A DNA stretch of 35,276 nucleotides. It comes from Syntrophaceae bacterium. Lineage in GTDB: Bacteria; Desulfobacterota; Syntrophia; Syntrophales; UBA2185. The stretch spans positions 26,819 to 62,094 of the forward strand of contig PLMX01000246.1 of the NCBI GenBank assembly GCA_003142635.1, written 5' to 3'. This document shows, piece by piece, positions 1 to 2,030 of this stretch. A model generated the notes under the pieces. It was not told where the DNA came from. It saw only the letters and a program-made list of their open reading frames with translations, and did no database searches. The position numbers were made by a program, and so were the translations under genes. Every line of letters starts with the position of its first letter. Positions within the stretch are counted from its first letter, which is position 1.

Positions 1-339
1 CAGCGCCACAACAGCAGCTATCGCTACAGTAAACTTGGAGGAAAGACTCCTTTGAAGGCCCTTGCCGCCTCGAATGCGAAACTACGGTTTCCTGCAAAAG
101 ATGAAGCCCCGATGCACCGGATAAAAAAGCCAGAGATCGGTAGATATCATGTTGTGAGACTTATCCGTAGCGATCTGAAACTCAACATCTTCGGAGAATG
201 CTTCTCGGCTCCGCCGGAGAGGAATTTGATTACAAATTGCGTTAAAAAACAGGTGAGTGTTCACGATGTCATGGCACTCAACAATTATTCATTTACAATG
301 AGAGTGACGATATGCGCAACTTGGGGGGGGAGTCGATGA
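1..339 (+). mobile_element. C-terminal fragment of an IS481-like (integrase-core) transposase
   Basis: The frame is open from the first base, so the gene begins outside the window. Residues encoded by about 1-220 match the tail I know from IS481-like transposases: an 'RYSKLGGKTPLKAL' block, then 'KLRFP', then 'GRYHVVRLIRSDLKLNIFGE' followed by 'PPE'. After about 220 the reading frame loses the family pattern ('ERNLITNC'), while the next frame briefly reads 'EEFDYKLR' and stops, which suggests a one-base slip in a decaying copy. The last bases overlap the start of the next gene. No terminal inverted repeat or target-site duplication could be identified. It is read as a remnant rather than an active element. 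Assignment to this transposase class is from recalled motifs, not from a search. Confidence 0.7.
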
Positions 340-1698
340 AAGAATACGATGTCATCGTCATAGGTGCAGGTACGGGACTGGGTATCGCATTTAAGGCACA
401 GGCCAGCAAACTGAAAGTTGCTCTAATCGACAAAGGAAGTGTTGGTGGAACCTGCGTTAATGTCGGTTGCGTCCCCTCCAAAATACTGATTTATCATGCC
501 GACAGGATCACCGACATAGAAGAGGCGAAAAAGCTGGGCATTGACGCGAAGGTAAAGCGGATAAATTTTCGCGCCATCATGGACCGCATGAAGGCTACCA
601 TAGACGAGAGCCGCACATGGATGGAAAATGAGATCGCAAACTCGAAAGGACTGGATTTCTACAACGAGGAAGCGCGGTTTGTCGATGCTTACACACTGAA
701 AGTCGGTAAAGAGACTATGAAAGGCCGGAAGATTTTCATTGCCGCCGGCCGCCCGTGCCCTCATACCGCCTGTCAAAGGTCGAAGTAAGATCGCTTATCT
801 GACCAATGAGAATCTGCTCGCCCTCCGGGAACAGCCGGAAAGTATCATCATCATCGGCGGCGGCTATATCGGAGTCGAATACGCCCACTTCTTTGCGGCC
901 ATGTGAACCAGGGTAACCGTGGTCCAGAGACAAAACAGACTCCTTGCCAATGAAGAACCGGAGATAGCGGACCATCTTAAGGAAGAGCTCTCAAAGCGCA
1001 TGGAAATTCTGACCAATTGGGAAACTGTGGAAGTCTGGGAGAAGAAGGGGCTCTACACAGTGATCTTGAAGAATCTTGAAACCGGCTATGACAAGGCAAT
1101 CAGCGGCGCAAAGGTGCTCGTCGCCGCAGGACGTGTATCCAACGCGGACCTGTTGGATGTACATAAGACAGGGGTAGAGACTAATGAAGCCAACTATATC
1201 AGGGTGGCCGATACGCTCCTGACGAGCAAGAAGAATATCGGGGCTATAGGCGACGCTATCGGGCGCCAAAGGTTCACGCACGCCGGCGACATGATGCAGC
1301 GCGTGGCCTGGCGTAACGCCACAAGCCGCAAAGAAGTGTCTTTCGATTTTAGTCTCGTTCCCCACGCCGTCTTTACGCATCCGCAGATCGCCTCGCTCGG
1401 CCTCACGGAAGAGCAAGCAGCTAAGAACCATGATATTCTTGTAGGCCGTGCAAATTATTCCGACGTGGTGATGGGGGATGCCATGATGGAAAGCGAAAGT
1501 TTCGCCAAGGCAATCGTGGAAAAAAAGACGGAGAAGATTCTCGGCTTTCACATCATCGGACCGGAAGCGGCCATTCTCATCCAGAAGGTCGTGAATGCCG
1601 TGGCCCGCGGGTGGGACGCGAAATCAATAACGGACAATATGCATATTTTTCCGGCACTCTCTGAAATCATTCCTGAAACATTGAACAACCTGGAATGA
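336..1698 (+). pseudogene. Mercuric reductase / dihydrolipoyl dehydrogenase-family flavoprotein, interrupted by a frameshift and an in-frame UGA
   Basis: This is a class I pyridine-nucleotide disulfide oxidoreductase of about 454 codons, full length for the family. The chosen ATG at 336 follows a G-rich ribosome site. It has an N-terminal FAD motif (GAGTG, residues 10-14), the redox pair Cys40/Cys45 in 'GGTCVNVGCVPSK', an NAD-binding 'IIIIGGGYIG', a second FAD motif ('IGAIGDAIG') and a C-terminal dimerisation domain ending 'MHIFPALSE', where the usual second His is Phe. Two lesions break it. An extra C near 749-750 shifts the frame: removing it restores 'AAGARALIPPVKG'. A UGA at 904-906 sits where relatives have Gly ('FFAAMG'), one base from GGA. 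That UGA is not at a redox site and I see no well-placed SECIS hairpin, so selenocysteine is unlikely there. Two lesions suggest decay or assembly errors. It lies 20 bp upstream of a MerP-like gene. Confidence 0.8.
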
Positions 1699-1718: not shown

Positions 1719-2030
1719 ATGAAGCATAGTACCCGTTTCGTTACCATCTGTATTATGAGTGTGATCTTCCTGCTCGTCGCTTCGCAGCCCCTTTTTGCCG
1801 CCGAAAGAATCATCAGACTGGTGGTCCCGGGATGCGAGTGACAGGACACGGCGAGCAGGGTAGGTGGTGCCCTGAAGGAAATCCCGAGCGTTCTTAAGTA
1901 CGATGCGAATCCATTCACTCACGAAGTCACTGTAAGATTCGACGATATAAGAACGAGTATTGATAAGATTGTGGAACGACTTGCCAAAGAAGACTTCCCG
2001 ATCAAGGGGGAACCGAGAATCATTCAGTAA
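1719..2030 (+). CDS. Exported MerP-like HMA-domain selenoprotein (Sec at codon 41, UGA 1839-1841)
   Basis: The gene encodes 103 residues if UGA at 1839-1841 is read as selenocysteine. The ATG at 1719 has a GAGGA ribosome site at 1706-1710. Residues 1-28 form a signal peptide ending 'PLFAAE', so the product is periplasmic. The mature part is one heavy-metal-associated (HMA) fold. 'VVPGCEU' followed by 'TASRVGGALKEIPSV' aligns without gaps to MerP 'VPGMTCAAC..' plus helix 1, which places Sec41 exactly on the first metal-binding Cys. The second Cys is replaced by Thr, and the Met before the motif is Cys39, giving a C-x-U pair. Downstream residues ('FTHEVTVRFDD', then 'KIVERLAKEDFPIKG') fit the later strands and helix. 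A hairpin follows the UGA at bSECIS spacing. Sec-containing MerP-like proteins are known in deltaproteobacteria. The role could be metal binding or thiol/selenol redox chemistry; the sequence does not decide. Confidence 0.8.
1856..1874 (+). promoter_or_regulatory. Candidate bacterial SECIS element for the MerP-like selenoprotein
   Basis: Seven base pairs form between CAGGGTA (1856-1862) and TGCCCTG (1868-1874), with one G-U wobble, closing a five-base loop GGTGG. The loop starts 22 bases after the last base of the UGA (1841) and its first base is G. Both features agree with the known bacterial SECIS consensus: an apical loop roughly 16-37 nt from UGA, with G in its first two positions. It lies inside the coding region, as bacterial SECIS elements do. 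Confidence 0.7.

Follow-up and report, generated by a model that had tools for sequence, protein, structure and literature searches.

A short gene in a Syntrophaceae bacterium raises the question of whether an in-frame UGA codon is read as selenocysteine (Sec) and, if so, what such a residue does in the HMA fold, which is usually metal-binding. The gene is located at 1719-2030 on the forward strand of the 35,276 nt stretch of contig PLMX01000246.1 analyzed here by purely computational means (the window). It had been described as a MerP-like protein with Sec on a metal-binding Cys.

An in-frame UGA in an HMA-fold gene

The reading frame begins with an ATG at 1719, contains a single in-frame TGA at 1839-1841, and ends with a TAA at 2028-2030. 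With the TGA read as U, it encodes a 103 aa protein with Sec at residue 41 in the context VPG-C-E-U; the C39-E40-U41 motif occupies 1833-1841. As read from the sequence, nucleotides 1719-1802 encode a probable N-terminal signal peptide (MKHSTRF...SQPLFAA). Hydrophobicity at the N-terminus is kept among homologs, and the product is likely to be exported. The N-terminus is followed by one HMA domain (Pfam HMA, 2.8e-7), and the product is predicted to fold accordingly. The AlphaFold2 model (beta-alpha-beta-beta-alpha, mean pLDDT 96) has oxidized MerP (PDB 1osd) as its top solved-structure match, with a TM-score of 0.89 by target length. The preliminary description had placed the UGA on the first metal-binding Cys of MerP in a gap-free alignment and a Thr on the second. 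Both placements were reproduced against 1osd, the Thr being Thr44.

Homologs of the gene were found in 102 of the 155 genomes of the order, and nearly all of the matches carry exactly one TGA (an in-frame TGA is absent from five). A single TGA at the same site is present in 103 distinct homologs, of which 87 are C-x-x-U, 15 are C-x-U (including the window sequence), and one is Y-x-x-U. The first Cys of the pair is retained in 102 of these 103. The C-x-U pair and the missing second Cys stand as described. Rather than an isolated loss in a single MerP, however, they represent the less common form of a family (hereafter HMA-U) that is mostly C-x-x-U and in which both residues of the pair are displaced relative to MerP. 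Four homologs have Cys at the Sec position, two as CxC (L022, L028) and two as CxxC (L073, L074), and they are scattered over separate places in the tree. L022, which comes from another family, is the nearest relative of the window protein outside its genus. Some of the Cys forms coexist with Sec paralogs (genomes G085, G050, and G025). One further homolog, L072 in genome G141, has a loop with neither Cys nor Sec (VPAIVSLETASEAG). The window protein is 94% identical to that of a congener. The coding sequence is conserved on both sides of the UGA, including after it, and there are too few changes around the UGA for pN/pS to be informative. The placement of Sec in an HMA fold is thus borne out by the Pfam match, the AlphaFold2 model, and the 103 homologs with the same TGA.

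A SECIS-like hairpin is located at 1856-1874 on the same strand, within the codons for S-R-V-G-G-A-L. Its 7 bp stem (CAGGGTA/TGCCCTG) begins 15 nt and its GGTGG loop 22 nt downstream of the TGA, as the preliminary description had reported. Counting both strands, the window has 1,327 TGA triplets, of which 13 are followed by an equal or better hairpin; taken alone, the hairpin is about a one-in-a-hundred event and weak evidence for Sec. Conservation across the family raises it above chance. Across the family, the hairpin falls within the stretch that encodes R-[IVM]-[GSR]-x-[IT]-L. Every one of the 103 TGA forms has the Arg, and 100 use AGG for it, even though each of the six Arg codons occurs elsewhere in HMA-U genes. 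The observed stem score is 7.24 of 8; when these residues are recoded synonymously, it averages 4.77 (sd of the family mean, 0.105). The Cys forms (n = 4) score 4-5.5, a weaker hairpin than that of the TGA forms. Standard pairs fill 91.9% of the cells of the eight-pair stem, and compensatory changes on both sides occur at six of the eight pairs. The covariation score of the stem is 0.293 versus 0.128 in shuffles, with none of 500 shuffles reaching the observed value, and moving the stem partner over by a single column cuts the pairing in half. The apical loop has a G that is invariant across 88 distinct hairpins. A search of Rfam gave no SECIS match at the gathering score and only chance matches under permissive settings.

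The SECIS stem is written inside a conserved helix, so the R-I-G-x-I-L motif of that helix may be kept by RNA structure and not by protein function. The motif drifts in the four Cys forms, as if kept by the SECIS alone. The family offers a clean case of a SECIS that constrains a protein helix, with the Cys forms, freed of the constraint, as a natural control.

The window genome, a draft of 260 contigs, encodes selA, selB, and selD, all above cut-off, but selC was not found above cut-off, and a selC pattern search gave a chance match only. Three congeners have selC at 76.6 bits, and the 1.1 kb around the congener selC has no match in the draft. The absence fits an assembly gap without proving one. 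Across the order, selA is present in 137 of 155 genomes, and in 91 of the 92 of good quality. The selD of the window genome (L018; contig C108 of G000) contains one in-frame TGA, and its SelD is likely also a selenoprotein. The preliminary description had named a genome without sel genes, or homologs that all stop or lack Cys and Sec at residue 41, as evidence against Sec. Instead, selA, selB, and selD are present and U or Cys occurs at residue 41 in relatives.

A DNA pattern consisting only of the exact C-x-x-U motif and the hairpin gave 72 matches in 84,980 genomes. The pattern itself encodes the motif, so the matches were checked using only residues outside of it. These residues fit the family model at an E-value below 1e-3 in 70 of the 72 and at 0.043 in one truncated copy; one match, from Clostridium, does not fit. 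The majority are in Smithella and other Syntrophaceae MAGs, and others are in Desulfonema magnum and in MAGs of Desulfobacterales and Desulfohalobiaceae. One match bears a Patescibacteria label, which is probably a binning error.

Reading of the UGA at 1839-1841 as Sec by SelA/B/D, directed by the hairpin at 1856-1874, is strongly supported. Since this arrangement and its RNA signal recur in more than 100 relatives, the HMA-U proteins are a real, largely unlisted selenoprotein family. Because the UGA is taken for a stop, annotation probably truncates the genes or overlooks them, despite their presence in about two thirds of the sampled genomes of the order. Syntrophales are key syntrophs in methane production.

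Neighboring genes and domain fusions

A second selenoprotein gene, for an exported AhpC/TSA peroxiredoxin, is located at 2217-2771 on the forward strand, with its UGA (2445-2447) at the position of the peroxidatic Cys. The motif is PAAFTPVU (PxxxTxxU), and the mature chain contains no Cys at all. The hairpin of this gene fails the simple SECIS rule used here, and its Sec therefore rests on motif and conservation. Orthologs (E-value below 1e-20) are present in only 3 of the 155 genomes of the order; each ortholog has the UGA and adjoins a CxU HMA gene (in G087 the two genes stand in reverse order). Most CxxU genes have unrelated neighbors on both sides and no peroxiredoxin neighbor, so the case for a peroxiredoxin partner rests on three genomes.

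Upstream of the HMA-U gene, a dihydrolipoyl-dehydrogenase-like disulfide reductase gene (336-1698, forward strand) is broken by a 1 nt insertion and by a Gly codon changed to TGA at 904. The congener G078 has an intact copy (453 aa), and the gene order there is cydA-cydB, disulfide reductase, HMA-U gene, and peroxiredoxin, with cydAB in the same orientation as the HMA-U gene. The breaks in the window are real unless they are assembly errors. The TGA at 904 was considered as a third Sec codon and rejected, as the congener has Gly at this site and no good hairpin follows; it is a decoy in-frame TGA near two real Sec codons. Just outside the upstream end of the window, a transposase-like gene (L071, 7027-7851) separates cydAB from the reductase gene; it is absent from that position in G078.

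The HMA-U domain also occurs in two kinds of fusion proteins. The first kind, in family f14, joins the CxU domain to a thioredoxin-like one, and PF14595 was matched in three of five members (L063, L065, L057, L067, and L060 carry the fusion). Ser replaces the expected Cys in some of them (FFGTWS). The AlphaFold2 model of the thioredoxin-fused form had a pLDDT of 62 and was too poor for use. In the other, the CxxU domain is N-terminal in PKD-repeat proteins from Desulfobacterales MAGs and Desulfonema magnum, and a rhodanese domain is also present in three of the five scanned (L231, 1777-4860; L192; and L215). The rhodanese loop is intact (CRSGNRS/CRTGRRS) in Desulfonema magnum and MAGs; the L215 rhodanese lacks the catalytic Cys.

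Proposed role and alternatives

We consider it reasonably likely that the window protein is a periplasmic selenol-thiol redox carrier, with Sec41 inserted by SelA/B/D and the hairpin, and with the peroxiredoxin as its partner in this genus. The Cys and Sec would lie in the beta1-alpha1 loop, as C-x-U here and as C-x-x-U in most relatives. The selenolate would attack an oxidized partner, the neighboring Cys would resolve the intermediate as a selenenyl-sulfide, and another reductant would reset the HMA-U protein. In the genus of the window, the likely partner would be the Sec-peroxiredoxin encoded next to it; this enzyme lacks a resolving Cys and would need an outside reductant. Several observations weigh against this reading: some fused thioredoxin-like domains and one fused rhodanese lack the expected Cys, the HMA fold usually binds metal, most CxxU members have no peroxiredoxin neighbor, and selC is missing from the draft. 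The fuller proposal, which we hold more tentatively, is that an HMA metal-carrier fold was turned into a periplasmic selenol-thiol redox domain that serves as the outside reductant of the Sec-peroxiredoxin, in a new family with thioredoxin-like and rhodanese fusions elsewhere. If true, a fold for metal binding would have been recruited for selenium-based redox chemistry.

An alternative in which the UGA is an ordinary stop, through pseudogenization or sequencing error, and only a 40-residue peptide is made, is very improbable. The broken gene just upstream, with its false in-frame TGA at 904, and the selC missing from the draft would be in keeping with it, but the congener and roughly 100 further genomes share the TGA, and both the hairpin and the sequence after the UGA are conserved. 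The other alternatives accept Sec. The protein could be a scavenger or chaperone of soft metals (Hg, Cu, and Cd) with thiolate and selenolate ligands. The HMA fold and the top match to MerP agree with this, selenols are strong binders of soft metals, ATPase-like genes with an HMA motif are found near three loci, and known HMA selenoproteins bear metal-binding names. This alternative is nevertheless unlikely: the MxCxxC motif is not kept, the C-x-U/C-x-x-U pair is in a different register, and the fusion partners are thioredoxin-like and rhodanese domains. In addition, merT is absent from the window genome and was found in 2 of the 155 genomes of the order.

Relay of sulfane sulfur (persulfide or polysulfide) in place of reaction with peroxide is suggested by HMA-U proteins of Desulfonema magnum and MAGs in which the fused rhodanese keeps its loop. 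We regard it as improbable, since that fusion lies outside the order of the window, one copy lacks the rhodanese Cys, and the neighbor in the window is a peroxiredoxin. Redox or sulfur chemistry is favored over mercury transport, as we infer from the two kinds of fusion, with redox and sulfur-transfer partners, from the near absence of merT, and from a gene that adjoins a Sec-peroxiredoxin without a resolving Cys in all three genomes of the order that have one. Retention of the first Cys in 102 of the 103 TGA forms and the cydAB genes upstream in G078 also speak for redox chemistry. HMA-U proteins are thus probably redox helpers and not mercury carriers. The preliminary description's preference for redox chemistry over metal relay gains support from the gene context and the fusions, but it is not proven.

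Comparison with MerP and known HMA selenoproteins

MerP (TIGR02052; PDB 1osd and 1afi) and the window protein are alike in fold, size, and export signal, with about 29% identity over the domain. In the gap-free alignment, VPG-M-T-C-S-A-C of 1osd corresponds to VPG-C-E-U-Q-D-T, and the G-M-T-C-x-x-C site is absent from the window protein. Unlike MerP, it has a shifted Cys pair, a Sec, and no second metal-binding Cys. It scores 33.9 bits against the MerP model, with an NCBIfam equivalog cut-off of 92.55, and the other HMA-U members tested score 25-57 bits. The label "MerP" is wrong for this protein, in view of the displaced Cys pair, the lost second Cys, the score below the cut-off, and the rarity of merT in the order.

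None of the HMA-U members scanned reached any NCBIfam model. The UxxU metal-binding (seleno)protein NF041115, the "putative mercuric reductase" of selenoprotein inventories, shares a Sec in an HMA-like domain with the window protein. However, it has two Sec residues as UxxU where the window protein has CxU, and its model, with a cut-off of 95 bits, gives the window protein 13.9. The CopZ-like domain of the MerT/CopZ fusion-like selenoprotein NF045683 weakly matches some HMA-U members, but NF045683 is a membrane MerT fusion, and the HMA-U scores do not exceed about 30 bits, against 375. An inventory from 2026 that covers 119 families and subfamilies of prokaryotic selenoproteins lists the HMA-type UxxU protein (NF041115) and MerT; a CxxU or CxU HMA family is not among the 119 (PMC13188914). 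The 2008 GOS survey reported two selenoprotein sequences as "Mercuric transport protein MerP" without giving the motif, and no Cys homologs were found in that data set (PMC2398784). The earlier statement that Sec-containing MerP-like proteins are known is therefore partly correct: these two unnamed sequences were listed in 2008, while the catalogs list other HMA selenoproteins (UxxU and MerT/CopZ). The two GOS sequences could belong to the CxxU/CxU HMA family, which is otherwise absent from current selenoprotein catalogs and is thus largely unlisted.
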